From positions 1 to 64,000 of the forward strand of contig JABLXQ010000021.1 in assembly GCA_013178375.1 (NCBI GenBank): DNA of 64,000 bases, read 5' to 3'. Each line of letters begins with the position of its first letter. Position 1 is the first letter of the stretch. A model generated the notes under the pieces. It saw only the letters and a list, made by a program, of their open reading frames with translations, searched no databases and was not told the DNA's origin. Below, piece by piece: positions 33,193 through 52,056 of this stretch. The DNA comes from Gammaproteobacteria bacterium. Lineage in GTDB: Bacteria; Pseudomonadota; Gammaproteobacteria; Pseudomonadales; Ketobacteraceae. Both the position numbers and the translations under genes were made by a program.

Positions 33193-33300
33193 AAGAGCGG
33201 CGGGGGCAAGGATGCTGGACGCACAGCGACATGGATGTCGCTGTGCAGCCCCCATGGATGGGTTCACGGCGTGTCCAGCATCCTTGCCCCCGCCGCTCTT
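33193..33300. repeat. Large nested palindrome between frmA and fghA
   Basis: Two perfect 28-base arms (33193-33220 and 33273-33300) are inverted copies of each other. The 52-base interior contains a second perfect palindrome with 12-bp arms (33221-33232 and 33235-33246) and a GG loop, then a third small stem CCCAT/ATGGG (33251-33262), also with a GG loop. As RNA or cruciform DNA it would form a three-way junction on a 28-bp stem. It lies between two cotranscribed genes, so it could be an mRNA processing element, a REP-like repeat or a small non-autonomous element. Confidence 0.9.
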
Positions 33301-35808: not shown

Positions 35809-37773
35809 CTAGCGGAAAATGGACATGACCCCGGACTGTTCCTCGGCCTGTTGCAGTTGCGCGGCGATTTCCCGGTAATCCAGCTGCGTGGCGATGGCGT
35901 GGGCATCCTGGCTGTTGTTGTTGCGTTTTTTCAGCGATGCACCGGCGTCGAGTAACGTTTTCACCGTTGCGGGATCATGTGCCAGCACGGCCAGTATTAA
36001 CGGCGTGTTGCCGTTCCTGTCGCGCAGATCCTTGTTGGCGCCGGCGCTGACCAGCAGTTTTACATGGCTGCTGCGACCGGCGCCGGCAGCCAGATGCAAG
36101 GCGCTGCTGCCAGCCTGATTCAGTGCATCCAGTTGCTTACCTTGCACTGTCGCGGGAATAAGCTGTTGCACGATGTCTTCCTGCTTGCCACTCGCTGCCG
36201 CATGCAGCGGTGTGTTGCCGCCATTGTCTGCAATGCTGGCGTCGGCGCCATGTTGCAATAATGCCTTGACCACGCGGGCCTGGCCCTGGCTGGCGGCATG
36301 CCATAACGCTGTGCCACCCCGGTTGTCTTGCGCATTCAGATCGATACCGCCATTGATGAGCGTGAGGGTTACGTCCAGCAATCCCCGTCGCGCGGCCAGC
36401 GGCAACCATTCCGCCTGCCAGCGCGATTTTGGCACTGGCTTCAGCAGATCAGACGAAAGAGCAGAACCATTTTCCAGGGCGAAGGTGACGGCGTTTTTTT
36501 TGTTGTCGTCCAGCTGGAGCGGGTCGGCCCCGCAGGACAGCAGCAGCGCCAGATTGTCGCGGCGATCAGCGGTTACAGCAAAGAACAATGCGTTGCGCCC
36601 GTGGGGGCCCGTCAGGCCTTTGCCTTTGGCTGATTGCAGCAGGTAAGCAAGAATCTGTGACTGCTTCTGTTGCGCAGCCAGGGTGATCACCGTGTGGCCC
36701 TGGGCGTTGGGCCGCCAGGGATCGGGGGTGTCGTTGAGCAGGGCCTTTACCAGCGCCAGATCGCCCCGCTCGACAGCCAGTTGCAATGGGGCAATATCGT
36801 CCGTTGTCTGGCGTGCTGCCGCCACCCGTTGCTGCAATGCCGAATCGGGCGCCGTTGTCACGCCACGGCGCTGAAAGGCCAACAGCACTGCAGCATTTTG
36901 ACGCGCCTGCGCCAGCTGCACGGCGGTGTTGCCCGCGTTGTCCGCAATCAGCGGGTCGGCATGATGACTCAGCATGGATTCCACCATCGCGGGATCATTT
37001 TTTTCCACGGCAATATGCAACGGCGTTCTGCCCAGTTTGTTGCGAATATCGGGTTTGGCGCCGTTGTCCAGCAGCCAGCGCAGCATGGGTTGATCCTGCG
37101 CTGCGGCCGCCAGATGCAACGCCGTTTCGCCGTTGTGATTCTGTTGATTGATATTGATGCCCTGCTGTTTCAGCAATTCCGCCGCCGGTTGCTGGCCGCG
37201 CGAGGCTGCCAGCGCCAGCAGATTGTTGCCGTTGCTGTCCGTGGCATCCAGAAATTGCCGGGCCGCAATGGCGGTGCGCAGTGTGGCCAGATCACCTTTC
37301 AGCGCAGCATTCGTCACCTGCTGTGCATCAAGGCTGGAATGGCCGGCGACTGCTCCCAGCTGTTCCAGCGCTTTTTCCGCCTTGTCGTGCTTTTGTGCTG
37401 CAGCCTGTTGCAGATACCGTTGTGCCTGTTGAGGATCTTTGGCGCCGCCGATGCCTTTGCTGTAGAACACGCCCAGCAGATACTGGCTGTCGGCCTGTCC
37501 CTGCTGCGCGGCGGTTTCCAGCAATTGCCGCGCTTTAGTCACATCCTTTTTCACCCCGGTGCCATTGCGATACAGCTGTGCCAGTTCATAGCAGGCTTTC
37601 GGGTCGCGGGATCGTGCCAGCGGTTCGATCAGTTGGGCGGCCTGGGCATATTGTCGCTGGCGAATATGGGCTGAGTAGTCCTGCCATACGTCATTGCTGG
37701 CGAACGCGGGCAACACAAAAAAGATCAGCAAAAACGGCAACCAGATCCGGCGCGCTGATTCAGGCAGTGCCAT
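35809..37773 (-). CDS. Secreted Sel1-repeat plus ankyrin-repeat protein
   Basis: A 654-residue protein with a signal peptide (PFLLIFFVLPAFA). Two Sel1-like units follow (AQLYRNGTGVKKDVTKARQL; GVFYSKGIGGAKDPQQAQRY), then about thirteen ankyrin repeats from ~residue 180 to ~640, several close to consensus (GRTPLHIAVEKND, GGNTPLHAAASGKQ). Such proteins are periplasmic binding scaffolds. Its start overlaps the stop of the reductase gene by 14 bases, so the two are translated together. A role in assembling or regulating the neighbouring multiheme electron-transfer system is an inference from that coupling. Confidence 0.85.
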   Translation of the reverse strand: MALPESARRIWLPFLLIFFVLPAFASNDVWQDYSAHIRQRQYAQAAQLIEPLARSRDPKACYELAQLYRNGTGVKKDVTKARQLLETAAQQGQADSQYLLGVFYSKGIGGAKDPQQAQRYLQQAAAQKHDKAEKALEQLGAVAGHSSLDAQQVTNAALKGDLATLRTAIAARQFLDATDSNGNNLLALAASRGQQPAAELLKQQGININQQNHNGETALHLAAAAQDQPMLRWLLDNGAKPDIRNKLGRTPLHIAVEKNDPAMVESMLSHHADPLIADNAGNTAVQLAQARQNAAVLLAFQRRGVTTAPDSALQQRVAAARQTTDDIAPLQLAVERGDLALVKALLNDTPDPWRPNAQGHTVITLAAQQKQSQILAYLLQSAKGKGLTGPHGRNALFFAVTADRRDNLALLLSCGADPLQLDDNKKNAVTFALENGSALSSDLLKPVPKSRWQAEWLPLAARRGLLDVTLTLINGGIDLNAQDNRGGTALWHAASQGQARVVKALLQHGADASIADNGGNTPLHAAASGKQEDIVQQLIPATVQGKQLDALNQAGSSALHLAAGAGRSSHVKLLVSAGANKDLRDRNGNTPLILAVLAHDPATVKTLLDAGASLKKRNNNSQDAHAIATQLDYREIAAQLQQAEEQSGVMSIFR

Positions 37774-39067
37774 ATTTGGTTTCCACGTTGATGCCGATTT
37801 TTTTGAGAAATCCGGTTGGCAATTCCCCGCCGGCGCAGATGATCACGCTGTCATTGGCGATGACCTTTACGCCCTCGGGCGTTTGCAGGATCACCACCTT
37901 GTCTTCGATGGTGGCAGGTGAACTGTTAAGAAATACGTCTATTTTTTTGGCCTGAACCAGCGCCTGCACCCGCTCGCGGTTTTTCGCCTTGGCGCGGTTG
38001 AAGGAATCGCCGCGATACGCCAGCGTGACTTGTGTGTCTTGCTCGTCGGCGATACTGATGGCTGCTTCCAGCGCGCTGTCGCCACCTCCGACCACCAGCA
38101 CGGCCTGTCCGCGATATTGTTCGGGATCGATCAACCGGTACACCACCTTGCTGGCATCCTCGCCGGGCACATTCAGTTTGCGCGGCGTGCCCCGCCGGCC
38201 AATGGCGAGCAGCACCTGATGACACTGATATTGCCGGTTGCCGGTGGTTACCAGAAATCCACCCGCAGTGCGCTCGATGTGCTGAACCTGTTCCCCCAGT
38301 GCCATGTTGAGGGGATGCCGCTGCAGCACGTCATCCCAGAACGCCAGCAGATGTTCCTTGCTGGTTTCAGTGAGCTTCACTTTTCCCACCAGCGGCAGCG
38401 TGGCGGGCTGGGTCATCACCAGTTTGCCCCGGGGAAAATGCGCCACCGTGCCGCCCAGTGTCGCCTCCTGATCCAGCGTGATGTAGCGGATGCCGGCCGC
38501 TTTCGCTGCCAGTGCAGCGGACAGCCCCGACGGCCCGGCCCCCACGATCACCGCATCCAGCGGTGCATCACTGCGTTTTGGAAGTGCTTTCACCATGGCT
38601 TCCATGGCCTGACGGCCCTGCTCGATCGCGTTGCGGATCAGGCCCATGCCCCCCAGCTCGCCTGCGATATAGATGCCGGGAACCGAGGTCTGAAAATCCG
38701 CCGCTATGAGGGGAATGTCCACGCCCCGCGTCGCGGTGCCGAATACCAGATCGATGGCACCCACCGGACAGGCCTTCTGGCACGCGCCATGGCCAATGCA
38801 GTTGGCCGCGCCGATCAGTTGGGCCTTGCCCTGGATCAGCCCCAGTACGTCGTGTTCAGGGCATGCATTCACGCAGGCGCCACAGCCCACGCAACGGGTA
38901 GTGTCGATGACAGGGTGCAGCGACGCCGGCTCATGCAGGCCGGACTCGCGCGCTTCCTGCAGCAGCGTCAGGTTCGCTTTGTCGCGCCGTTTCTGCAGAT
39001 AAATGTAAACGCCGCCAATCAGCAGCAGGGGCGGCAGATAGATCAGCAGCGGGATCAGGTCATCCAA
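37760..39067 (-). CDS. Membrane-anchored FAD/NAD(P) reductase with two 4Fe-4S motifs
   Basis: A 435-residue protein with an N-terminal membrane helix (~5-25). A ferredoxin-like segment follows: C59, C62, C65 and C69 form a classical CxxCxxCxxxCP, and C90, H93, C96 and C100 form a second cluster motif with His in place of one Cys. Next comes VPGIYIAGELGGMG (~129-142), a motif that usually ends thioredoxin-reductase-like flavoproteins, and only then the FAD loop GAGPSG (176-181) and the NAD(P) loop VVGGGDSALEAA. The order is thus permuted. Residues 170-435 are a thioredoxin-reductase-type flavoprotein without a redox CxxC. Divergent from the cytochromes, it is a candidate for moving electrons between NAD(P)H and the membrane cytochrome b. 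Confidence 0.85.
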   Translation of the reverse strand: MDDLIPLLIYLPPLLLIGGVYIYLQKRRDKANLTLLQEARESGLHEPASLHPVIDTTRCVGCGACVNACPEHDVLGLIQGKAQLIGAANCIGHGACQKACPVGAIDLVFGTATRGVDIPLIAADFQTSVPGIYIAGELGGMGLIRNAIEQGRQAMEAMVKALPKRSDAPLDAVIVGAGPSGLSAALAAKAAGIRYITLDQEATLGGTVAHFPRGKLVMTQPATLPLVGKVKLTETSKEHLLAFWDDVLQRHPLNMALGEQVQHIERTAGGFLVTTGNRQYQCHQVLLAIGRRGTPRKLNVPGEDASKVVYRLIDPEQYRGQAVLVVGGGDSALEAAISIADEQDTQVTLAYRGDSFNRAKAKNRERVQALVQAKKIDVFLNSSPATIEDKVVILQTPEGVKVIANDSVIICAGGELPTGFLKKIGINVETKYGTA

Positions 39068-39154
39068 CGTAAGTGAGCCTTTGAGTGTGATGTGATTCGC
39101 AAAAAACGCAGACAGCGCTGTGTCGCTTTTGGCAGAACAAAAAATAGCACAGAA

Positions 39155-39175
39155 TTCTTAAGGGTTATTTAAGAA
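39155..39175. promoter_or_regulatory. Palindrome in the reductase-cytochrome divergent region
   Basis: TTCTTAA (39155-39161) and TTAAGAA (39169-39175) form a perfect 7-7-7 inverted repeat midway between the divergent operons. It does not match the FNR or Fur consensus. It may be an operator controlling both directions. Confidence 0.35.
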
Positions 39176-39267
39176 TCGGGGATTAGTGTTAAGACAAGCT
39201 GTTTGCCGAATGTCGCGGCCTATTCCGCGTTTGATCCTGTTTGAACTTGTTGAATTCTGGAGATCCG

Positions 39268-40134
39268 ATGCCGGCTGAGCAGATTCTCGCGGCAACGCCT
39301 GTCGTAACCGCCACTCCCATCGTGCCTGGGCGCAAGCCGTTGGCGCCCACTGCATTTGCGCTGGCGGTATTGTTGCTGGTGGGCTGGGGTTACGCTCGAC
39401 GCCACGATCTGGTGCTGAGTGCTGAAACCGGGCTGGGTTACAGCCTGGGTATTCTTGGCGTGACCTGCATGTTGCTGCTGCTGACCTATCCACTGGCCAA
39501 GCGCACCCGGACATTGCAGCGTCTGGTGCCGGTCAAATACTGGTTCCGCGTGCATATGATGCTGGGCATTCTCGGCCCGGTGTCGATCCTATTTCACTGC
39601 AATTTCCAGATGGGTTCGCTGAACAGTTCAGTGGCACTGGTGTGCATGCTGCTGGTGGTGGCGAGCGGGGTTATCGGCCGCTATTTTTACAGCAAGGTGC
39701 ACCTGGGGCTGTATGGCCAGAAAGCCAGTGGCAAGGCGCTGTTGGCAGCGGCGCGGCAGCAACAGCTGCAACTGCGCCAGTTATTTGCCGGCTACCCGGA
39801 CATGGCAGCACGGGTGGACCAGTTCTATAGCCAGTTGTTGCCGCAGAATCCGGAAAACATGTCCGTCAGTGGCGCCGTGCTGGCGGCACCCCGGCGCTGG
39901 TACTACCGGCTGCGCTTCCGGCTTGCCATCCAGCGCCATCAGCAGGCGGATCTGCAACAACTCTGGCGTGACTCGCATAAAACCCTGAACCAGTATCTGG
40001 ACACCTTGCGCAAACTGGCGCAGCTGCAGTTTTTCGAGCGCCTGCTGTCCTGGTGGCACATTCTTCATATGCCCTTCTTCATCATGATGCTGATTACCGC
40101 CGTGGTGCATGTGTGGGCGGTGCACCGGTACTGA
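39268..40134 (+). CDS. Membrane cytochrome b-like protein of the multiheme cluster
   Basis: A 288-residue integral membrane protein; GGAGAT lies five bases before ATG 39268. Hydrophobic segments are near residues 35-52, 65-85, 102-120, 128-150 and 265-285. Candidate heme-b ligands face each other: H in VHMMLGILGPVSILFHC on one pair, and WHILHM and AVVHVWAVH near the C-terminus. A ~100-residue cytosolic helical insert (LLAAARQQQLQLRQLF ...) separates the two halves. The product resembles the membrane subunit of ferric-reductase-like or b561-like quinol oxidoreductases. It is followed three bases later by the 21-heme gene, so it is the likely inner-membrane entry point for electrons. Confidence 0.75.
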   Translation: MPAEQILAATPVVTATPIVPGRKPLAPTAFALAVLLLVGWGYARRHDLVLSAETGLGYSLGILGVTCMLLLLTYPLAKRTRTLQRLVPVKYWFRVHMMLGILGPVSILFHCNFQMGSLNSSVALVCMLLVVASGVIGRYFYSKVHLGLYGQKASGKALLAAARQQQLQLRQLFAGYPDMAARVDQFYSQLLPQNPENMSVSGAVLAAPRRWYYRLRFRLAIQRHQQADLQQLWRDSHKTLNQYLDTLRKLAQLQFFERLLSWWHILHMPFFIMMLITAVVHVWAVHRY

Positions 40135-40137
40135 GCA

Positions 40138-41688
40138 ATGCAGATGCGCGCCTGGCTATTCCTCGTTTTATTGATGCTGCTGCCGCTGCAGGCGAACGCC
40201 ATCGACCTGAATCTGGAGCGCATGCTGAGCCCGGGCGATCTGAGCCAGGCGCACAGCAAGTACGAAAAAGACTGCAAAAGCTGCCACAGCGATTTCAAGC
40301 AGGAAAATCAGAACGCCTTGTGCGTGGATTGCCACAAGGACGTTGCGCAGGACATCAGCGCCAAAACCGGATTTCATGGCATGAAGCCGGGCATTGCCAA
40401 CAGCGAATGCCGCCTGTGCCATTCCGAACACCAGGGCCTGAAGGCCGACATCGTGCAATTGAATCCGCACGGGTTCCCGCACCAGTTCACGGATTTTCCG
40501 TTGCAGGGGCTGCATCAGCCCGTGGCCTGCAACCAGTGTCATATGGAAGGCAAAAAATTCCGCGAAGCGCCGCAGCAGTGTATCGACTGTCATCGCAAGG
40601 ATGACGTGCACAAGGGCAGTCAGGGCCAACAATGCGCCAACTGCCACTCCGCCGAAGGCTGGCGCAAAACCGTGTTTGACCACAGCAAAACGCTGTTTCC
40701 GCTCAAGGGCGCGCACGGCAATGTGGAATGCAGCCAGTGTCACCGCGGCAGTGATTACAAACAGGCCGAAACCACCTGCGTCAGTTGCCACAAGATCGAC
40801 GACGTGCACCTGAATACCTTTGGCACGCAATGCGATTCCTGTCACAGCACAGAAAAATGGAAATCCGCGCGCTTCAATCACAACCGCGATACGGATTTCC
40901 ACCTCGCCGGTGCACATAGCACACTGCAATGTTCCACCTGCCACAAGCCTGGCACCGTTGCCAAAGAACTGCCACAGACCTGCGTCGGCTGCCATCGCCA
41001 GAACGATGTGCATTTCGGCAAGAACGGCGAGCAGTGTGATCAGTGCCATTCAGTGAACAGCTGGGGCAAGAGCCGGTTTGATCACAGCAAAACCAGTTTC
41101 CCGTTGCGCGGTGCTCACATGAATGCCCAGTGCACTCAGTGCCACCAGGGCAATGTGAATACGCCGATCAAGGACACCACCTGCATTGCCTGTCATGGTG
41201 CGGATGATGTGCACAACAAATCATTGGGTGCGCAATGCCAGCAATGTCACAGCGAATCCGGCTGGCATGACAACGTCCAGTTCGATCATGAGCTGACGCA
41301 TTTTCCCTTGCTGGGCATGCACGCCACTTCGGCCTGTGAGAGCTGTCACGAGAACACCCGGTTTGCGGGTACGGCATCGGCCTGTGTGGATTGCCACCGC
41401 ACGGATGACGCACACAAGGGCAAACTCGGCGACGACTGCGGCAGTTGCCATCATCCAGCCGCCTGGAAAAGCTGGCGTTTCGATCACGACAAACAGACGC
41501 CATTTCCGCTCACGGGCGCGCATCAGGGGCTGGCGTGCGACGGCTGCCACGACCAGACATTGTCGCAGCTCAAGGGTCAGCAGTGTGGCCAGTGTCATCA
41601 GGCGGATGATGTGCACCGTGGCGCCTACGGACGGCAGTGCGATACCTGCCACAATACCCGCGATTTTTCCACGCTTGAAATGAGGTGA
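40138..41688 (+). CDS. Periplasmic 21-heme cytochrome c
   Basis: A 516-residue protein with a signal peptide (LFLVLLMLLPLQANA) and 21 CXXCH motifs, about one heme per 24 residues. From ~residue 120 the motifs are organised as a repeating unit: a CXXCH followed by DVH, a second CXXCH ~11 residues later, then W, FDH, FPLxGAH, and another CXXCH. Each unit carries extra His for bis-His ligation. There is no lipobox or membrane segment, so it is probably a soluble periplasmic wire. Maturation needs a Ccm system encoded elsewhere. It lies between the cytochrome b-like gene and a second multiheme gene. Confidence 0.95.
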   Translation: MQMRAWLFLVLLMLLPLQANAIDLNLERMLSPGDLSQAHSKYEKDCKSCHSDFKQENQNALCVDCHKDVAQDISAKTGFHGMKPGIANSECRLCHSEHQGLKADIVQLNPHGFPHQFTDFPLQGLHQPVACNQCHMEGKKFREAPQQCIDCHRKDDVHKGSQGQQCANCHSAEGWRKTVFDHSKTLFPLKGAHGNVECSQCHRGSDYKQAETTCVSCHKIDDVHLNTFGTQCDSCHSTEKWKSARFNHNRDTDFHLAGAHSTLQCSTCHKPGTVAKELPQTCVGCHRQNDVHFGKNGEQCDQCHSVNSWGKSRFDHSKTSFPLRGAHMNAQCTQCHQGNVNTPIKDTTCIACHGADDVHNKSLGAQCQQCHSESGWHDNVQFDHELTHFPLLGMHATSACESCHENTRFAGTASACVDCHRTDDAHKGKLGDDCGSCHHPAAWKSWRFDHDKQTPFPLTGAHQGLACDGCHDQTLSQLKGQQCGQCHQADDVHRGAYGRQCDTCHNTRDFSTLEMR

Positions 41689-41694
41689 CCGGCC

Positions 41695-42897
41695 ATGGCA
41701 AACCGAATTGCAACGTGGACTCAATCTGTAATGCGTTTGCTGGCGAATGTTTTTTTATTCGGCGGCGTTCTGCTTTGCGGCGCGCTGTTCGGTAATGCCG
41801 CGCAGGCGGCCGATTTCGATCACGATGCCACCCGATTCGAACTGCGCGGCTTTCATGAATATGTGGAGTGCGAAGTCTGTCATGTGAACGGCCGCTTCAA
41901 GGGCACGCCCACCGATTGCTTCGCCTGTCACGGTGGCAGCTCGCAAATCCCCGGCGGCGGCAAGACCCTGAATCACATGTTCACCACCAACGCCTGCGCT
42001 GACTGCCACCGCCCGGACGCCTGGGATTCCGTTACCCGGTTCGACCACAGCCAGACGCAGGGCACTTGCGTGCAGTGTCACAACGGTACCGTGCAACCGG
42101 GCAAGCCAGCCAATCACGTCGTCAGCAGCGATCAGTGCGACAGCTGCCACAACACTATTAACTGGACGATGGCGCGGTTCGATCACGCTGGAATTACTGC
42201 TGCGTGCTCCAGTTGCCACAACAATGTCACGACCACTGGCAAGCCTGGCAATCATGTCATGACCAACGCCGAATGCGACAGTTGCCACACCACCCGCGCC
42301 TGGACACCGGCCGGCTTCGATCACAGCGGCATTACCCAGCCTTGTTCATCCTGCCACAACGGAACGACAGCCACAGGCAAACACCAGAATCACCTGCTGA
42401 CCATGGCCGAATGCGATACCTGTCACATGACCCAGGCCTGGACGCCGGCGAATTTTGATCACGGATCGGTTACGGGCAATTGCTCATCCTGTCATAACGG
42501 CACCACCGCCACGGGCAAGAACAACGGGCATTTTGTGACGAATCGCGACTGTGATTTTTGTCATGTCACCACTCGCTGGTCGCCTGTTACCTACATGCAT
42601 CAAGGCAGCGGCTATCCGGGCAATCACGCGCAGCAACTGGATTGCAACGATTGCCACCAAGGGAATGTGGAAGTGAATGTCTGGACGTTCCCGGCATACC
42701 AACCGGATTGCGCCGGCTGCCATGCCAACAACTTTGTAATGGATTCACATAAAAAAGTGGATTCACCCACCATTCGATACACGGTGAGCGAACTGCGGGA
42801 TTGCACCGGCGCCTGCCACCTGTACAACGACAGCACATTCGGCACCGTGCGCGAATTCCGTACCGGCGAGCACAGGGTTGGCGATGGCGAGTTCTGA
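41695..42897 (+). CDS. Periplasmic multiheme cytochrome c, 13 CXXCH plus one CX3CH
   Basis: A 400-residue secreted protein: a long signal peptide ends near NAAQAA. Thirteen CXXCH motifs are present, and near the C-terminus CTGACH has three residues between the cysteines, an atypical heme site. The central part is a tandem repeat of ~45 residues (NHVMTNAECDSCH, WTPAGFDHSGIT, CSSCHNGTTATGK). It starts six bases after the 21-heme gene, and its last codons overlap the barrel gene by 14 bases. Together they suggest one transcript producing a periplasmic-to-outer-membrane chain. Confidence 0.95.
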   Translation: MANRIATWTQSVMRLLANVFLFGGVLLCGALFGNAAQAADFDHDATRFELRGFHEYVECEVCHVNGRFKGTPTDCFACHGGSSQIPGGGKTLNHMFTTNACADCHRPDAWDSVTRFDHSQTQGTCVQCHNGTVQPGKPANHVVSSDQCDSCHNTINWTMARFDHAGITAACSSCHNNVTTTGKPGNHVMTNAECDSCHTTRAWTPAGFDHSGITQPCSSCHNGTTATGKHQNHLLTMAECDTCHMTQAWTPANFDHGSVTGNCSSCHNGTTATGKNNGHFVTNRDCDFCHVTTRWSPVTYMHQGSGYPGNHAQQLDCNDCHQGNVEVNVWTFPAYQPDCAGCHANNFVMDSHKKVDSPTIRYTVSELRDCTGACHLYNDSTFGTVREFRTGEHRVGDGEF

Positions 42898-44950
42898 GAT
42901 CAATCGCCTGCAGTCGCGCAGCTGGCTGGCGTGGAGGATAGTGCTGACGCTTCTGCTGATGGCGGGGACGGTGCACGCTGCTCCGTCGTGGGTGGAAGGC
43001 ATCAACGTGCTGTATGAAAAACCGGACAACGCCGGCTTTCAGGTTCTGCTGGCGAATGCGTTCCAGATGGCAGCGGTGGAAAGCAACGCCGGCAAGCGCT
43101 GCGGCGTGCGTCTGCAACCAGGATTTTCCCTGCAATCGCAGCAGGAACGGTTCTCGGCGGAAAAGCTGTTGTGGGACGCCACCGCGACATTGCCGCTGGA
43201 AAGCGTGACATCGGAATGGGTGGCCAACCAGCTGTGGGTGCAGCTGTACTTTCAGAACACAGTGAGCTGCACGTTTCAGATCGGCGCCAATCGTCGAACG
43301 CTGCTGGTCACCATCCGCCCGGAAGATTCCGCCGCTACCCAGGCCATCAACCAGCAACTGCAACAGGCAAAGTCCGCACTGGCCCGGGGTGACACCGCAA
43401 GCGCCGTCACAATTTACCGCGCGATCCTGGAACAACCGCCCCATCCCCTGCAGCAGGATGCGCTGGAATATCTGGGTGTCGCGCTGGAACGGCAGCAGGA
43501 TTACGACCGGGCGGCAAAAATCTATCAGGCGTACCTGAATGAATATCCCGACGCAGCCGGCGTGCCTCGAGTGCGCCAGCGATTGGAAGGCATCGCGTTG
43601 ATGCAGGAAGTGCCGCCACCGGAATTACGCAAAGCCAAACCGCAGGCAGAGAAGGAAACCACCCGCTGGTTTGGAGTGCTCAGCAATTCCTACCAGCATT
43701 ACAGTTCCGATCAGGGTGTGGGCGAGTGGGAAAACCTGCAATCGGCCTGGATCACCGACGTGAATCTGAATGGCCGTCATCGCGGTGAAGAAATGGATGT
43801 GAAGGTGCTGGTGTCGGCCGGCTACTGGAACGATTTCAACGACGAAACGCCGGAGCCCGAGCGCCTCAGCACTGCCTATGCGGATGTTTATCACAAGTCC
43901 ACCGGACAGCAGGTGCGCGCCGGCCGCCAGACCACCAACGGCGAAGGCATGCTGGGGCGTTACGATGGCGTGCGTTACAGCAAATCACTCGGGCCGCAAT
44001 ACGCAGTGAACGGCATCTGGGGCCATCCCGTCATTTCCAGTCGCGATATCGAAATCAACAGTGACACCCAGCTCTACGGCCTGAGCCTGGACATCACGCC
44101 ACCGCAATCACGCTGGAAACACAATCTGTTCGTGACGGAACAGACCGTGAACGGCATGCTGGATCGTCAGGCAGTGGGCGGCGAAGTGAATTTTATCGAC
44201 CGGAACCAGAGCTGGCTTTCGTATCTGGATTACGACGTCAACTTCAATGAATTGAACACAGTCATGCTGAACGCCAACTGGTTCGGCGCGGACGAATCCC
44301 ATTATTACGTTGCGCTGGATTATCGGCGCTCGCCGGTGCTCACGCTGTCCAACGCGCTGATCGGGCAGACCCTCACCGAACTTGATCAGCTGACGGCGCT
44401 TGGTTTTACCGACAGCGAACTGGAAGAAGTGGCGCTGGATCGTTCCGCCATCAGCGAGTCGGTTTCTGCGGGTACCAGCCGGCGGTTTCATCCCCATCAT
44501 CGCTGGGCAGTGGATGCCAGCCTGTGGCAACTGTCGGGGCTGGAAGAGTCGGTCGGCGTGCCGGGTTTTGATGGCACTGATCTGGAAACCAATCTGAGCG
44601 TGCAGCTGATTTCCAACGACATCCTGTGGCAACGTGATCTGAGCTGGTTCACCCTGCGTTATGCTGATCTCACCACCAGTCAGTTGTATTCCGTGACAGC
44701 AGAAATACGGGTGCCCATCGACAGCCGCTGGCGGGTGCGGCCGAAACTGCAGATCTATGAGCGCAGTTTCACGGAAGTGGACGGCGCGGAAACGTCGGTG
44801 CAGCCGTTGGTGCGGCTGGAGTATCAGCCCGACAAAGCCTGGAATTTTGAACTGGATGCGGGCGCGGAGTGGCTCAGTTCGGACCAGAACGGCTTTAGCG
44901 TCGAGCGGCTGGATTATCTGCTGTATCTGCGCGGCGACTGGTTGTTCTGA
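42884..44950 (+). CDS. Outer-membrane beta-barrel with N-terminal TPR segment
   Basis: A 688-residue protein started at ATG 42884, overlapping the cytochrome gene. A signal peptide (VLTLLLMAGTVHA) is followed by ~130 residues of mixed fold and a TPR-like segment (~150-230; ARGDTASAVTIYRAILEQ, QQDYDRAAKIYQAYLNEY). From ~260 to the end, alternating polar/aromatic strands form a large barrel with a terminal Phe (LLYLRGDWLF), as expected for Bam-dependent insertion. It could sheath a cytochrome, as MtrB does for MtrA, but no MtrB-type CXXC is seen. Its function is inferred from genomic context only. Confidence 0.8.
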   Translation: MASSEINRLQSRSWLAWRIVLTLLLMAGTVHAAPSWVEGINVLYEKPDNAGFQVLLANAFQMAAVESNAGKRCGVRLQPGFSLQSQQERFSAEKLLWDATATLPLESVTSEWVANQLWVQLYFQNTVSCTFQIGANRRTLLVTIRPEDSAATQAINQQLQQAKSALARGDTASAVTIYRAILEQPPHPLQQDALEYLGVALERQQDYDRAAKIYQAYLNEYPDAAGVPRVRQRLEGIALMQEVPPPELRKAKPQAEKETTRWFGVLSNSYQHYSSDQGVGEWENLQSAWITDVNLNGRHRGEEMDVKVLVSAGYWNDFNDETPEPERLSTAYADVYHKSTGQQVRAGRQTTNGEGMLGRYDGVRYSKSLGPQYAVNGIWGHPVISSRDIEINSDTQLYGLSLDITPPQSRWKHNLFVTEQTVNGMLDRQAVGGEVNFIDRNQSWLSYLDYDVNFNELNTVMLNANWFGADESHYYVALDYRRSPVLTLSNALIGQTLTELDQLTALGFTDSELEEVALDRSAISESVSAGTSRRFHPHHRWAVDASLWQLSGLEESVGVPGFDGTDLETNLSVQLISNDILWQRDLSWFTLRYADLTTSQLYSVTAEIRVPIDSRWRVRPKLQIYERSFTEVDGAETSVQPLVRLEYQPDKAWNFELDAGAEWLSSDQNGFSVERLDYLLYLRGDWLF

Positions 44951-45959: not shown

Positions 45960-46309
45960 GGTGGTCTCCTGTTTAATTGATAAAAGTTAGTGGGAACAGT
46001 TTTGCTGTTCTTTGAGAGAGACGGTGGGGGCGCAAAAAACTGGGTGGTAAGGCGGGTGCGTTAGGGGGAAAGTGTGAATATTCACGTCTTCTGTGTCGCT
46101 GGGAATTCTTGGTGTATTGGTGCGGCTATTGTTGTTGTGGGGCGCGGATAGGTTTTTGAAGGCAAGTGGACGGGTAATGGTGACGGTTGGACTGCGCTGG
46201 GAAAATGGGGTTTGTATGGTTTATATTCTTGATGAATATGAGCGTGCTGGTTTGGCGGTAGGTTCAATACATAGTTATGCGCATACTGGAATCAAGGAGT
46301 TGAATTAGA
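45960..46309. other. Junction between native DNA and the cassette array
   Basis: About 350 bases without a convincing gene. A short open frame (GTG 46093 to 46308) runs across the presumed cassette boundary and has no ribosome-binding site, so it is not called. GTTATGC at 46274-46280 fits a core recombination site and marks where the array begins. No attI, integrase gene or earlier attC is visible to its left. Confidence 0.5.
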
Positions 46310-49276
46310 ATGGCGAAGTCCACATCTAAAATCTCGCCGTCGCCTTGGCCTATAGGGTCGATTTGGAGGCGATGGGATCTTCATGTACACACTCCGTGGA
46401 GCATGCTGGGAAATTCTTTCCAAGGTGTTGTATGGAGCGATTACGTAGATGCTCTAGAAAAAGCGGCCGAAAGCGATGAGATTGCGGTTTTAGGTGTTAC
46501 CGATTACATGGCCATCGACGGATATCAAAAATTACATCAGGAAAAGTTTCAGAGCGATCGACTGAAGTCAATTTCGTTGCTTATCCCGAACATTGAGTTT
46601 CGAATTCTCCCATCAACAATCGATGGAAAAGCGTTGAATTTGCATCTCCTAGTCGACCCAAGCGACCCAGAGCATATCCAGCACATCCTAGGTTCACTAA
46701 GAAACCTTCGTGTCGAATACGACGGGTCCACGTATGGATGTTGTCATGACGATCTCGTTAAATTTGGTAGAGCTCAAAATCCAAATCTTAACGACGCTGC
46801 TGCCTACAAGTTTGGCATTGAACAGTTCAAGCCTGACAAGACCCAGATAAAGAGATGGCTTGAAAAGGAAAAATGGTTAAGAAGCAATTCACTAATAGGC
46901 GTGGCAAATGGCAAGGATGGAATTAGCGGCCTTCCATTAGACGGTTTTGGGGCTACGCGCGATGAAATTCTCAAGCTTTGTGATTTTGTGTTTTCTGGAA
47001 ACCCATCTGACAGAAAACATTACCTTGGGCAAAAACCAAGCACGACGCCAGAGGAAATACTTCGTCAATATAGGTCACTAAAGCCCTGCCTACATGGTTC
47101 GGACGCACATAAAATTGAAGACTTATTTAAGCCTGACAATGATCGGTTTTGTTGGATCAAGGGGGACCCCAGTTTCCACGGGCTTCGTCAAGTACTTTGG
47201 GAGCCGGAACATCGAGTTCATATCGGTGAATTCCCGCCTCAGCACTCTGATAAATCACAAGTTATAAGTCGGATCAGCATCTCTGGTGACGATAATTGGT
47301 TCTCCGATAAGCAGCTGAACTTAAATCCAGCCTTGATTACTGTAATTGGAGAAAAAGGTTCTGGAAAGACGGCAATTGCAGACTTGATCGCATTTGCTAG
47401 TGGAGCCCCCCTCGATCGATCTTCACAATCGTCATTCATTAATAAAGGCGCGGTACATTTAGAAGGCGTCAAGATTGAACTGGAATGGGGAAGCGGTGAG
47501 AAGACAGAAGCAACATTACCTACCGACTCTTTTTCAGCTGGACGCCCCAGGGTGCGCTACCTGTCGCAGGATTTTGTTGAACGACTTTGCTCCGCTGACC
47601 ACCAAGGCATAGAGCTTCAGCGCGCTATCGAGGAAGTTGTTTTTTCCAAACTCAGCGAAGTACAAAGGGAGGGGTATTCATCTTTTAGTGAATTGCGAAA
47701 CGCACGGGAATCAGCGTCTAAATCTCGTCAGAGCCGACTTAGAGGTGACTTGGCCGCTCTGCACAAAGATGTTGAGTCAAATGCCAGAAGTGTCCAGGAG
47801 CGTCCTCAAAAAGAGATACTAAGGAAGGAGGCTGAACTTAAGGTCCAGGAATTGGAAAAACAACTTCCTGAAGCTTCCTCTACCGTGGACAGCAAAGTAC
47901 TTGCAGAACTTGATGCTGCTCGCGAGCAACGTAAAACGTTAGAAGAGTCAATCTCGGAATTGCGCAGGAATAAAAGAAGGTTAGATGATGAGCTAGCACG
48001 TTATGCAGAGCTTAAGGAGCAAACGCGAGATGCCGTTAAAGCTATTGCGAAGAGGCTCTCCCCTCTAAATCTTTTGGATAATCTTGAAGTAATAATGCTA
48101 CCCGCTTGGAATGAGTCGGTTGTCGAGAGGCTTACAAACACATCAAAAAATATTGGAAAGCAAATCGATCTTAAATTAGGTGAAGAATCGCTACCGCCAC
48201 CAGATGGTTCTTTAGCGAAACTGCAAGATGTGATCAAAGGTCTCGAAGAGCGGCTCGCTAAGGACGAAGTAGCGAAGAAGCGGGTTCTAGATTTGCAAAA
48301 AGAGATATCTAGCGCAAAATCAAATGCTGAACGTCTAAAGAAAGAATTGGATAGAATTGATGGGGCGCTAACCAAATCCCTGCAAAGCCTAAAGGAGCGT
48401 CAAATATCCCTGTACCTTGAAATGTTTGATGCGCTGGGACAAGATGAGGAAGGTCTCTCCGAACTGTATTCGCCTCTGCAGGTGGCAATAGACTCCCTCG
48501 GCGAAGATATGCAATTTCGTGTTTCAGTTGGTTATCAAATCGATAAAGATAGATGGTGGTCAAAATTTGATGGCTTCTTTGACAACAGAAGGTCGGGAGT
48601 TGAGAAGCAGAAAGCTGATACCTTAAGAATCGTTGATAAAGAACTTTTGCCTGCTTGGAAGAGTGGTAAAACTGAGTCGATTCGATCTGCTCTGGAAAAT
48701 TTGTTGTCATGCCTTGCTGTTGACACATTTCCGGAGAAATATGGTTTGCCCAGACTTTCATTGGTTGATCTCTATGATTGGGTTTTCTCCACCGATCACA
48801 TATCGCTAAGCTATAAAATTCGATACGGCGACACCGACCTTGAGAATCTTTCCCCAGGAACCCGAGGGATCGCGTTGCTAGTGCTGTATCTATTAATGGA
48901 TGAGGATGACACTCGTCCACTTCTAATTGACCAGCCCGAAGGCAACTTGGATAACTCATCGGTCTTTGAGCAACTTGTTCCATACATCCAGAAGGCCAAG
49001 ATGAGGCGTCAAGTCATACTCATCACGCATAACCCGAACCTAGTTGTCGCCACGGACGCGGAGCAGGTCATAGTCGCATCAGCGGAGCGTCCTGCAACCC
49101 AGCCATACCCGCTTATTCATTATTCTTCGGGCGCACTTGAGCATTCCGATATGGGCGCAGCCATGGGGATTCGAGAAGCTGTTTGCTTGTTCCTGGAAGG
49201 CGGAAAAGATGCCTTTCGTGTAAGAGAGAATCGGTATGCATTGGCAAAGCGACAAGCCACCGCAGACGGCGCATAA
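46310..49276 (+). CDS. PHP-domain plus SMC/ABC-type ATPase (TrlF-like)
   Basis: A 988-residue protein carried as the first cassette. A PHP phosphoesterase-like domain starts with DLHVHTPWS (~23-31), and GSDAHK is near 263. A Walker A motif GEKGSGKT is at ~347-354, a long coiled coil at ~460-700, then LSPGTRG (ABC-signature-like) and Walker B PLLIDQPEGNLDN (~869-881), followed by LITHNPN. The layout matches TrlF-type AAA/SMC-like ATPases, related in plan to RecF/RecN and to nuclease-ATPases of anti-phage systems. PHP domains often hydrolyse phosphodiesters with metal ions. AAGGAG precedes the ATG. GC is well below that of the flanks. A defence role is an inference. Confidence 0.85.
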   Translation: MAKSTSKISPSPWPIGSIWRRWDLHVHTPWSMLGNSFQGVVWSDYVDALEKAAESDEIAVLGVTDYMAIDGYQKLHQEKFQSDRLKSISLLIPNIEFRILPSTIDGKALNLHLLVDPSDPEHIQHILGSLRNLRVEYDGSTYGCCHDDLVKFGRAQNPNLNDAAAYKFGIEQFKPDKTQIKRWLEKEKWLRSNSLIGVANGKDGISGLPLDGFGATRDEILKLCDFVFSGNPSDRKHYLGQKPSTTPEEILRQYRSLKPCLHGSDAHKIEDLFKPDNDRFCWIKGDPSFHGLRQVLWEPEHRVHIGEFPPQHSDKSQVISRISISGDDNWFSDKQLNLNPALITVIGEKGSGKTAIADLIAFASGAPLDRSSQSSFINKGAVHLEGVKIELEWGSGEKTEATLPTDSFSAGRPRVRYLSQDFVERLCSADHQGIELQRAIEEVVFSKLSEVQREGYSSFSELRNARESASKSRQSRLRGDLAALHKDVESNARSVQERPQKEILRKEAELKVQELEKQLPEASSTVDSKVLAELDAAREQRKTLEESISELRRNKRRLDDELARYAELKEQTRDAVKAIAKRLSPLNLLDNLEVIMLPAWNESVVERLTNTSKNIGKQIDLKLGEESLPPPDGSLAKLQDVIKGLEERLAKDEVAKKRVLDLQKEISSAKSNAERLKKELDRIDGALTKSLQSLKERQISLYLEMFDALGQDEEGLSELYSPLQVAIDSLGEDMQFRVSVGYQIDKDRWWSKFDGFFDNRRSGVEKQKADTLRIVDKELLPAWKSGKTESIRSALENLLSCLAVDTFPEKYGLPRLSLVDLYDWVFSTDHISLSYKIRYGDTDLENLSPGTRGIALLVLYLLMDEDDTRPLLIDQPEGNLDNSSVFEQLVPYIQKAKMRRQVILITHNPNLVVATDAEQVIVASAERPATQPYPLIHYSSGALEHSDMGAAMGIREAVCLFLEGGKDAFRVRENRYALAKRQATADGA

Positions 49277-49372
49277 CAAGGCGATGCAGACGGACAAACC
49301 CAAGCGGTCATACCTTTCGCCGACGCAAAAGCTGCGCCAGCTTGGTCTTGCCGCTGATCTGCGGCGTTATGT
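49271..49372 (+). repeat. attC recombination site of the ATPase cassette
   Basis: Outer boxes GCATAAC (49271-49277) and GTTATGT (49366-49372) enclose ~88 bases with inner L-box AAGGCG and a central imperfect stem around AAGCGG ... CCGCT. The ATPase stop codon lies in the first box, as is common for cassettes. Length 102 bases. Confidence 0.85.
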
Positions 49373-49405
49373 GCACCGTGGATCGGATATAAAAGGAGAC
49401 ACACA

Positions 49406-50272
49406 TTGAAGGCAGTTGTACTGGACGGCAAGACGCTGTCTCGAAAAATCGAGCAAGAGTTAGCTGAGCGAGTGACCAAGATCAAAGAACGAACAAATGG
49501 GTCTACCCCAATATTGGCTACGATCTTGGTAGGAAATGACCCCTCTTCCGCAACCTATGTCAGGATGAAAGGAAATGCGTGTGAGAGAGTTGGAATGGAG
49601 TCTCTAAAAATCACACTTCCTCAAGCTACCACCACCGCGGCATTACTTGCAGAGGTGTCCGCACTAAACAACAATCCCAATGTGCACGGGATTTTGCTTC
49701 AGCATCCTGTTCCGACACAGATTGATGAGCGTCGGTGTTTCGACCAGATTGCTATCCATAAAGATGTGGACGGTGTGACCTGTCATGGCTTCGGGAAAAT
49801 GTCTATGGGTGAGCCCGCCTACGGGTCTGCAACACCAATGGGTGTCATGCAGCTACTCAGTCACTATGGCGTTTCCGTGGAGGGCAAGCATGCAGTAGTG
49901 GTGGGCCGAAGCTCCATCCTTGGTAAGCCAATGGCAATGATGTTGCTGAATGCCAATGCTACCGTAACTATATGCCACTCCAGGACTAACAGGCTTCCTG
50001 AGATTATTCAAAATGCAGACATAGTAGTGGGGGCAGTGGGCAAGCCTGAATTCATCAAAAGCAACTGGATCAAAGATGGCGCTATTGTCATTGATGCTGG
50101 TTACCATCCGGGCGGAGTGGGCGACATCGAATTGACAGGAGTTATAGAAAGATGCTCGGCATATACACCAGTGCCTGGTGGAGTGGGCCCGATGACAATC
50201 GCAACCTTGATTACACAGACAGTAGATGCCGCTGAAAAATACACATACGAGTCATTCAAGCGGACCCGCTGA
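49406..50272 (+). CDS. folD: Methylenetetrahydrofolate dehydrogenase/cyclohydrolase on a cassette
   Basis: A 288-residue FolD interconverting 5,10-methylene-, methenyl- and 10-formyl-tetrahydrofolate. Motifs: [14 protein letters not shown] with the catalytic Lys, [20 protein letters not shown], the NADP loop [11 protein letters not shown], and [14 protein letters not shown]. It starts with TTG 49406 after a strong AAAAGGAG. The last ~9 codons (ending SFKRTR) come from the attC itself. Lower GC than the flanks. As a second folate enzyme it might alter one-carbon flow or sensitivity to antifolates, but this is speculative. Confidence 0.93.
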
Positions 50273-50300
50273 CGCGGGCCGCTTAACTCCAGCGTTAGGC
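50243..50300 (+). repeat. attC site of the folD cassette, first box altered
   Basis: The pattern TTCAAGCGGACCCGC ... GCGGGCCGCTTAACTCC ... GTTAGGC is a textbook short attC. The first box reads ACATACG where ACATAAC would pair with the cassette's left end. The change removes the TAA expected there, so folD reads into the site and stops at TGA 50270-50272. Length 58 bases. Confidence 0.8.
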
Positions 50301-50322
50301 TCATCAAGTGGTGCGAGAATGA

Positions 50323-50454
50323 GCAGGAAATTACTGGGTCATTACATATCTGGGCTTGCGCAATGTGGACAAAAAATGGTCCATGCCGGTGAGAGACTGG
50401 AAAGCAGCGTTAAACCAGTTCATCATCCTGTACGGCGATAGAGTGCCGGTTTAA
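50323..50454 (+). pseudogene. IS256-family transposase remnant, C-terminus only
   Basis: Translation of this strand gives ITYLGLRNVDKKWSMPVRDW then KAALNQFIILYGDRVPV and a stop, which is the conserved C-terminus of IS256-family (mutator-type) transposases. Everything upstream is missing. The following bases include GCCGTTTACACAG, which resembles the right inverted repeat of this family. It sits inside the third cassette, between its left boundary and the methyltransferase gene. Confidence 0.85.
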
Positions 50455-50615
50455 TCTGAACTGCCGTTTACACAGTTGTTTTTTTTATCCTCACGGTTTG
50501 CCGCGCGGCATTTTGCTGCGAAAAATTGTACGTCCCGCTACAAACCACTTCGCCGGCGAGGCGGCTCTGTTCCACCGTTTAACATGGAGTTTGGCAGCTA
50601 CCCAAGGAGAAAATC

Positions 50616-51380
50616 ATGATGCTAAGACACTTTGCTCGCAGGCTAAAAAACGCGTTCAACTTTGTGATTTTCAAACTTCGAAGCAGTGGAAAAGAGAGGT
50701 TTGAGTGCCCAGTCTGCGGTTATATCGGTCCCTTCATGGACCTTGCATCTGCCGCAGGCCTCAGAAAACACGCAAAGTGCCCGAATTGCAATGCAGTCGA
50801 AAGGCACCGAATTCAATTTTTAGTCGTCAAGAAGGTTTTAAGTGACATAAGCACAACGGATATGAAAATGCTTCACTTCGCCCCTGAGCCATTTTTTCGA
50901 GAGTATTTTTCAAAGCGATTTGGGCAATATGAAAGTGCAGACTTAAGTAGGAAAGGTGTCGATCACAATGTAGATCTACAACAGCTACCGTTCGACAATG
51001 GTAGTTACGATTTTATCTTTGCCTCCCATGTGTTAGAGCACATCCCTGATGACGAAAAGGCGATTTCAGAAATACGTAGAGTCTTAAAGCCGAACGGAAT
51101 AGCCATTCTTCCCGTTCCGATAGTTGCGGAACGAACAATCGAGTATCCAGAACCTAACCCTCATGAAGCCTACCATGTCCGAGCACCCGGAATTGACTAC
51201 TTTGATAAATATGAACGCCATTTTTCAAGAGTTGAAAGGTTCCGTTCTGATTTGCTTCCGGAGAAATATCAATTGTTTGTTTTTGAAGACAGAAGTCAAT
51301 GGCCAACAAGGGAATGCCCTTTGCGCCCTTCCATGGCGGGTGAAAAGCACATTGATATTGTTCCCGTATGCTATGCATGA
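50616..51380 (+). CDS. SAM-dependent methyltransferase with N-terminal zinc-binding motif
   Basis: A 254-residue protein with AAGGAG six bases before ATG 50616. Two Cys pairs (CPVC and CPNC) in the first ~55 residues suggest a zinc finger, followed by the methyltransferase core: DLQQLPFDNGSYDFIFASHVLEHIPDD is motif II/III-like, and IRRVLKPNGIAILPVPI follows. Motif I is unusual (MLHFAPEPFFREYF in place of a Gly-rich loop), as in a subgroup of cell-surface or cofactor methyltransferases. Its substrate is unknown. Lower GC than the flanks, and it ends just before an attC, so it is the third cassette's gene. Confidence 0.8.
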   Translation: MMLRHFARRLKNAFNFVIFKLRSSGKERFECPVCGYIGPFMDLASAAGLRKHAKCPNCNAVERHRIQFLVVKKVLSDISTTDMKMLHFAPEPFFREYFSKRFGQYESADLSRKGVDHNVDLQQLPFDNGSYDFIFASHVLEHIPDDEKAISEIRRVLKPNGIAILPVPIVAERTIEYPEPNPHEAYHVRAPGIDYFDKYERHFSRVERFRSDLLPEKYQLFVFEDRSQWPTRECPLRPSMAGEKHIDIVPVCYA

Positions 51381-51393
51381 GTTGCAACTTACA

Positions 51394-51465
51394 GCCGAAC
51401 AAGGCGCTGCACTGGACGGCAATTCCGCTGTGGTCCATTGCCGCCGGTGAGCTTTGTCGTTAGGC
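51394..51465 (+). repeat. attC recombination site of the methyltransferase cassette
   Basis: Boxes GCCGAAC (51394-51400) and GTTAGGC (51459-51465) enclose AAGGCG and a strong central stem (ACTGGACGGCAAT pairing with ATTGCCGCCGGT). Length 72 bases; all features are standard. Confidence 0.88.
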
Positions 51466-51492
51466 GACAACCTGAAAAAAGGAGACACACGG

Positions 51493-51954
51493 ATGAATAA
51501 AGTGACACCGTTCCTGATGTTCAACGATCAGCTCGAGGCGGCCATGGCGTTCTACACCGCCACCTTCCCGGACTCCGAAATCAGGAACGTCGCCCGCACT
51601 GGCAACGACGGTCCGATCACCTCCGCTGAATTCGTCGTCGGTGGTCAAGTCTTCATGGGCTACAACGGGGGCGCGTACTTTACGTTCTCCGAAGGCGTCT
51701 CGCTCTACGTTGACTGCGAGAACCAGACCGAAGTCGACGAGTATTGGGACAAACTGGTCAAGGCCGGGGCGACGCCTACTGCGTGCGGCTGGATCAAGGA
51801 TCCGTTCGGCCTCTCGTGGCAGATTGTCCCCAGGCGTTTCATGGAACTCATTGCCGATAAGAATCCAAAAAAGGTACAGGCGGTGATGGAAGCCATGATG
51901 ACAATGGTGAAGCTCGACGTGGCGGCCCTCGAGAGCGCCTATGATGCTGCATAG
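51493..51954 (+). CDS. VOC superfamily protein, PhnB-like
   Basis: A 153-residue glyoxalase/dioxygenase-fold protein (MNKVTPFLMFNDQLEAAMAFY ... GWIKDPFGLSWQIVPR), of the PhnB-like group related to the so-called 3-demethylubiquinone methyltransferase entries. It starts at ATG 51493 after AAAAGGAGACACAC, the same 14 bases that precede folD. It lies just after the third attC, so it may be the next cassette, but no clear attC follows. Its substrate is unknown. Confidence 0.85.
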   Translation: MNKVTPFLMFNDQLEAAMAFYTATFPDSEIRNVARTGNDGPITSAEFVVGGQVFMGYNGGAYFTFSEGVSLYVDCENQTEVDEYWDKLVKAGATPTACGWIKDPFGLSWQIVPRRFMELIADKNPKKVQAVMEAMMTMVKLDVAALESAYDAA

Positions 51955-52056
51955 CAGACAGCATGCTTACAAATGCCCGCAAGCCTGCCTCACCCGAAGC
52001 GTCAGGCCGCACAAATACGCTTATCAACCGGCTTCAATTCCAGGAGAAAGAACACC

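Follow-up and report, generated by a model that had tools for sequence, protein, structure and literature searches.

A PCC3-type porin-cytochrome locus in a Ketobacteraceae genome and its companion NAD(P)H-type reductase

We analysed a window of 64,000 nucleotides (positions 1 to 64,000 of contig JABLXQ010000021.1, assembly GCA_013178375.1) from a gammaproteobacterium of the family Ketobacteraceae, in which two divergent transcripts with six open reading frames (ORFs) of interest form a locus resembling PCC3, a type of porin-cytochrome system predicted by He et al. in 2017 (PMC5566968). An earlier note, made from the sequence alone, had reported five genes here, and all five ORFs were found, with the cytochrome genes tightly packed and the reductase ORF on the opposite strand. 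On the plus strand, the first gene (39268-40134) encodes a PCC3-type inner-membrane protein, predicted from its motifs and structural model to be di-heme and cytochrome-b-like with five transmembrane (TM) helices. It is followed by the gene of a 21-heme c-type cytochrome (40138-41688), recognized by its CxxCH count and its relatives and predicted to be periplasmic, and by that of a second multiheme cytochrome with 13 CxxCH motifs and one CxxxCH motif (41695-42897), recognized by motif count and by homology to its counterpart in Bradyrhizobium sp. STM 3843. The last gene (42884-44950) encodes an outer-membrane protein for which a TPR match and an AlphaFold model indicate an N-terminal beta domain, TPR helices and a 22-strand barrel. 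The spacing of these genes is as the note had given it, with gaps of 3 and 6 bases and a final overlap of 14 bases if the barrel gene starts at ATG 42884, or of 20 bases if it starts at TTG 42878. On the minus strand lies the gene of a membrane-anchored reductase of 435 aa with iron-sulfur (FeS) motifs and a flavin adenine dinucleotide (FAD) domain (37760-39067), identified from Pfam matches, alignments, PDB relatives and co-occurrence. The left transcript carries a second gene, absent from the earlier note, which overlaps the reductase gene by 14 bases and encodes an exported, predicted periplasmic protein of 654 aa with Sel1 and ankyrin repeats (35809-37773; Pfam matches and a hydrophobic N-terminal segment).

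The divergent intergenic region (39068-39267) measures only 173 bases when the membrane-protein ORF is taken from its first start, TTG 39241. That codon is probably 27 bases too early, and ATG 39268 is preferred because a GGAG lies 5 bases upstream of it and a relative (L010) also opens with MPAE; residue numbers of the membrane protein given below count from TTG 39241. A possible operator lies in this region at 39154-39176, in the form of a perfect 8-bp inverted repeat, ATTCTTAA-N7-TTAAGAAT. An operator common to the relatives was ruled out, as the palindrome is missing in 47 related intergenic regions, and no sigma-70-like promoter was found in the divergent intergenic region.

The inner-membrane protein possesses two WX3HX13H motifs, WFRVHMMLGILGPVSILFH and WHILHMPFFIMMLITAVVH (residues 101 and 272), and an SGVIG motif at residue 142, and the four histidines of the WX3HX13H motifs are invariant in 38 aligned membrane-protein sequences. 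The structural model, with a predicted local distance difference test score (pLDDT) of 85.8, shows five TM helices, with a helical domain within loop 4; TM3 spans residues 98-119, TM4 residues 127-153, and TM5 lies inside a helix of residues 236-296. Lysine and arginine, as read from the sequence, are enriched in loops 2 and 4, which places the N-terminus and the fourth-loop helical domain in the cytoplasm, so that TM3 and TM5 are parallel and run from inside to outside. H105 and H276 would bind an inner b heme and H119 and H290 an outer one, the same arrangement as that of the heme ligands H69/H129 and H82/H142 of SpNOX (PMC11031084). A Pfam search with the membrane protein returned no match, PF01794 included, and its PDB sequence relatives comprised none that was convincing.

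The two cytochromes contain 21 CxxCH motifs and 13 CxxCH plus one CxxxCH motif, respectively, in agreement with the counts of the earlier note. Residue shuffles yielded a mean of 0.29 and a maximum of 4 CxxCH motifs for the first cytochrome and a mean of 0.15 and a maximum of 2 for the second. The first has 24.6 aa per heme, while the second has 30.8 aa per CxxCH and is built of 23-residue repeats. A first cytochrome with 21 hemes was found in 55 of 65 relatives. Across the relatives the first cytochrome has 18-24 hemes in nearly all cases and the second from 7 to more than 96 (L086, L071, L107 and others), and thus it is mainly the outer part that appears free to vary in length. In another species (genome G213, L111:2977-15234; also L107), the second cytochrome is encoded by a single open frame 4,086 codons long, in which 133 CxxCH and 11 CX3-4CH motifs were counted; the largest heme count known in 2017 was 85 (He et al., PMC5566968), and proteins with more than 100 hemes are mentioned in PMC11475568. 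A search of the genome with a tight DNA pattern for CxxCH pairs gave no match, the pattern being too strict.

In the AlphaFold model of the outer-membrane protein (mean pLDDT 89.6), 22 barrel strands were counted at residues ~259-687, preceded by the N-terminal beta domain and the TPR helices and interrupted by a helical insert at residues 488-519. Its structural matches in the PDB reach a Z of 19.2, and the best of them are large barrels that include many TonB-dependent receptors (Z about 16-19, with about 350-380 residues aligned). Judging from the model, a barrel of such width could hold a cytochrome. MtrB is not among the structural matches listed, which excludes nothing. A role in surface-lipoprotein assembly (Slam) was ruled out, the TPR_Slam match scoring 17.6 against a cut-off of 35.2 bits. 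The exported protein of the left transcript has Pfam Sel1 and ankyrin repeats and a hydrophobic N-terminal segment that is also present in 50 of 50 relatives; its role is perhaps in assembly or as a scaffold.

Feature by feature, the locus was compared with the published description of PCC3 (PMC5566968). First, the PCC3 inner-membrane protein is described as a protein of ~300 aa with five TM helices, of which TM3 and TM5 bear WX3HX13H and TM4 bears SGXXG; both WX3HX13H motifs and SGVIG are present here, and their placement on the helices agrees in the model. Second, the published periplasmic cytochrome has a median of 21 hemes and 22-39 aa per heme, values that the first cytochrome matches. 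Third, the published set contains a second, repetitive cytochrome, which its authors modelled as extracellular, plus a barrel. The repetitive second cytochrome here is homologous to that of Bradyrhizobium sp. STM 3843 and, with 14 hemes against a published median of 34, stands at the small end of PCC3, and the barrel is represented by the 22-strand model and its PDB matches. In Bradyrhizobium sp. STM 3843 (L077), which is named as a PCC3 host (PMC5566968), the membrane protein is 40 % identical and the two cytochromes match at 424 and 202 bits in the same order; the contig ends before the barrel position. Because the motifs, heme count, gene set and Bradyrhizobium homologues agree, we are nearly certain that the cluster is a member of PCC3. 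The conduit proposed by the earlier note, likened to MtrCAB and porin-cytochrome complexes, thus stands as the best reading, and a conduit across the whole cell envelope is probably encoded here. Its claim of newness falls by the measure that the note itself had named, the existence of close homologues with an assignment to a known complex, and a categorically new conduit was ruled out. Two traits that it had singled out as peculiar lose that standing as well. Only 3 of 68 second-cytochrome relatives show a lipobox-like string ahead of their first heme, so the want of a surface lipoprotein cytochrome is no distinction, and the pair of large cytochromes, taken as both periplasmic, includes the one that the PCC3 authors place outside the cell.

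The reductase has a single TM helix at its N-terminus, followed by two FeS motifs of ferredoxin type and a TrxR/FNR-like domain for FAD and NAD(P) (Pfam). In its relatives, lysines and arginines flanking the TM helix average 4.8 after it and 0.7 before it, so the remainder of the protein is predicted to be cytoplasmic. The first FeS motif reads C-x2-C-x2-C-x3-C-P and the second, at residues 90-100, C-x2-H-x2-C-x3-C-P, with a histidine in the place of a cysteine that is conserved in 70 of 70 reductase relatives; the second cluster may therefore be an unusual His-ligated 4Fe cluster or a 3Fe cluster. The nearest PDB relatives of the flavin domain include YpdA and TrxR-type ferredoxin-NADP reductases (7a7b, 3ab1, 5twb), and both Rossmann glycine motifs are invariant in the alignments. 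All of the invariant cysteines lie within the FeS motifs and none is conserved in the flavin domain; thus there is no TrxR-type disulfide, and a thiol reductase of that type was ruled out for want of a conserved redox-active cysteine pair. By its motifs, the protein would in effect be a ferredoxin fused to its own NAD(P)H reductase.

To survey these genes beyond the window, we scanned with the membrane protein, taking one genome per species, which gave 499 relatives, and 80 loci were kept. The conserved set of five genes that the earlier note had envisaged was found in relatives. Among the 64 loci with at least 4 kb upstream, 59 contain a reductase homologue, in 53 cases divergent and upstream of the membrane protein, and 49 contain the ankyrin protein; the reductase and ankyrin genes are less than 200 bp apart in all 53 relatives that have both. 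In a draw of 369 genomes from the class, with thresholds of E < 1e-25 for the membrane protein and E < 1e-50 for the reductase, 41 genomes have the membrane protein and 44 the reductase, and each of the 41 membrane-protein genomes also has the reductase. Same-contig pairs of the two genes are divergent in 38 of 41 cases. The three reductase-only genomes consist of one with a weak, 38 % partial match, one with a partial match, and a 72 %-complete bin whose family includes a positive genome. When 398 genomes from the phylum were drawn as a second sample, few of them shared with the first, both genes occurred in the identical six (6/6). In two of these (G086 and G721) the reductase and the membrane protein lie on separate contigs, and the link is therefore more than neighbourhood. 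The arrangement also varies: in L095, L096 and L100, the reductase, ankyrin, membrane-protein and cytochrome genes are all co-directional, and plasmid pEMTOL02 of Emticicia oligotrophica (Bacteroidota) carries a PCC3-like operon (L112:11088-19784) in the order CcsA, membrane protein and reductase, then the two cytochromes (23 and 40 hemes) and lastly a possible barrel of 538 aa. The Emticicia membrane protein gives a 122-bit profile match with the same histidine motifs, and its reductase is 47 % identical. We consider it highly likely that the reductase is a functional part of the PCC3 system. The open-access PCC3 papers (PMC5566968, PMC10734462, PMC8788666, PMC12442390, PMC13386937, PMC12016527) describe four genes, with no ankyrin protein and no NAD(P)H-type reductase, and within the open literature, subscription papers and supplements being outside this scope, none combines 'porin-cytochrome' and 'ankyrin'. 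What is new thus appears to be that the reductase and the periplasmic ankyrin/Sel1 protein belong to the PCC3 set.

On balance, we favour the interpretation that the locus is a PCC3-type system with an overlooked, NAD(P)H-linked electron-entry module. NAD(P)H, or else ferredoxin, would deliver electrons to the cytoplasmic FAD/FeS reductase; provided that hemes are inserted as the motifs predict, these electrons would then pass the inner membrane via two stacked b hemes, first H105/H276 and then H119/H290. The 21-heme periplasmic cytochrome would take them from the b hemes, and they would leave via the 14 c hemes of the second cytochrome, which the 22-strand barrel would hold and which is presumably exposed, for an extracellular acceptor. 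The whole would be analogous to a NOX or ferric reductase that is split in two and coupled to an outer-membrane wire, and its likeliest use would be the discharge of electrons outward. For outward, NAD(P)H-linked flow in itself, we put the chance at even or slightly better. Electrons moving outward from NAD(P)H run downhill, with the membrane potential aiding them, whereas the inward route from Fe(II) to NAD(P)+ needs energy and is uphill twice. Thus, an electron outlet is favoured over the iron-oxidase reading of the literature. This direction fits data from S. lithotrophicus ES-1, in which PCC3 transcripts fall in Fe(II)-grown cells (PMC8788666) and PCC3 proteins are at similar levels across all samples (PMC12016527).

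Several points weigh against this interpretation. To our knowledge, no PCC3 system has been tested biochemically. The use of NAD(P)H is deduced from motifs, and either a quinone, which He et al. proposed, or ferredoxin could be the partner. The co-occurrence of reductase and membrane protein has a Fisher p of 2.5e-51, but such p-values ignore the kinship of the genomes, and the survey leaves out the type hosts ES-1 and Leptothrix. The likeness of the membrane protein to the SpNOX fold (8qq7) is suggestive only: in VIA-align, the model matched it at rank 40 with Z 7.7 and a root-mean-square deviation of 3.2 over 120 residues, a deviation better than that of most higher-ranked rows but at a lower Z than theirs, and a score that is not top-ranked and is within reach of unrelated helical bundles. 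Foldseek with the membrane protein gave no significant match, and hhalign of this protein against the PF01794 ferric-reductase-family protein of the same genome gave a probability of 1.1 %. In addition, the function of PCC3 has been described as unverified, and in CL21 cells oxidising iron an increase was reported for the inner-membrane protein of one PCC3 copy, which fits an outlet less easily (PMC12442390).

That rise speaks for the published model (PMC5566968) of an inward, quinone-linked PCC3, in which Fe(II) or another outside donor would feed the quinone pool via the membrane protein and the reductase would aid reverse flow or have a side role; the presence of PCC3 in iron oxidisers (PMC10734462) also speaks for it. 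However, the ES-1 transcripts and proteins do not follow this model, and a purely quinone-linked route has no need of an always-present NAD(P)H-type reductase. In the window genome, moreover, no DmsE/MtrA-family protein above the cut-off was found, Cyc2 not having been searched for. We therefore judge the inward model unlikely, though still to be reckoned with. A role of the reductase and ankyrin protein in maturation, outside the electron route, for example by reducing cytochrome cysteines or by chaperoning the repetitive cytochromes, is improbable: the flavin domain does resemble thioredoxin and bacillithiol disulfide reductases, the Emticicia relative lies near the cytochrome-assembly gene CcsA and the ankyrin protein is predicted to be exported, but the invariant reductase cysteines are confined to the FeS motifs, with no TrxR-type disulfide, and the predicted cytoplasmic side of the reductase does not face apocytochromes.

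Returning to the outward reading, we propose only tentatively, giving it somewhat less than an even chance, its extension to PCC3 at large as a six-part, NAD(P)H-linked outward system rather than a four-part, quinone-linked uptake system, composed of a split NOX-like pair of an Fd-FNR flavoprotein and a di-heme b protein, a cytochrome wire and a dedicated periplasmic ankyrin protein. For nine years, annotations have treated PCC3 as a possible iron oxidase, although no function has been demonstrated and the expression data fit poorly. With a near-inseparable NAD(P)H-type reductase, the system acquires a partner in the cytoplasm and a testable direction. If the proposal is true, the use of PCC3 as an iron-oxidation marker would change, and numerous bacteria that are not known for outside acceptors, among them plant symbionts and sediment dwellers, would gain an electron outlet.

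Concerning the surroundings of the locus, a recent acquisition of the cluster was rejected, as its G+C content of 57-60 % equals that of the left flank. The genus has only one other genome, which lacks the cluster membrane protein, but synteny with this sister genome breaks near 34.2 kb, so that no insertion site can be defined. A stretch of ~60 bp at 33215-33278 is found again, with 79-97 % identity, at about 25 sites in the sister genome (G369), and by this recurrence it is an interspersed repeat of the genus. On the other side, at 46000-52000, the G+C content falls to 46-50 % against 57-60 % in the flanks, and this DNA is nearly missing from the sister genome. It encodes a 988-aa SMC/AAA-type protein (46310-49276) with weak PADLOC matches to defence ATPases, and the region is possibly a defence island adjoining the cluster.

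Among known systems, MtrCAB, MtoAB and PioAB are like the locus in functional plan, a barrel and a multiheme wire across the outer membrane. Membership in MtrCAB/PioAB was ruled out: neither the Pfam nor the NCBIfam matches of the barrel include the MtrB/PioB family, and the second cytochrome scored 57.7 bits with the DmsE/MtrA model, far below the cut-off of 192.2. The barrel is modelled here with 22 strands, whereas MtrB has 26. The Methylobacter bioanode system was likewise ruled out as a counterpart, its published cluster being of the MtrAB type. PCC4 shares an inner-membrane protein with the same motif pattern and, in its subgroup II, an FeS gene near it, but differs in having three periplasmic cytochromes, an unrelated inner-membrane protein family and a pfam13247 FeS protein instead of an FAD/FeS fusion (PMC5566968). 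NOX and ferric reductases, as represented by SpNOX, similarly hold two b hemes between TM3 and TM5 and are fed by cytoplasmic FAD and NAD(P)H (PMC11031084); here, in contrast, the flavin module sits on a protein of its own, of TrxR type and with FeS motifs, a relay of 35 hemes would form the acceptor side, and the membrane protein has no detectable sequence relationship to NOX. TrxR-type ferredoxin-NADP reductases and YpdA share the FAD and NAD(P) domain, but the reductase here additionally has a TM anchor and two motifs of ferredoxin type. With respect to PCC3 itself, the published set has four genes, whereas the locus here, like almost every relative with sufficient flanking sequence, includes the reductase too, and the relatives usually carry the ankyrin/Sel1 protein besides.

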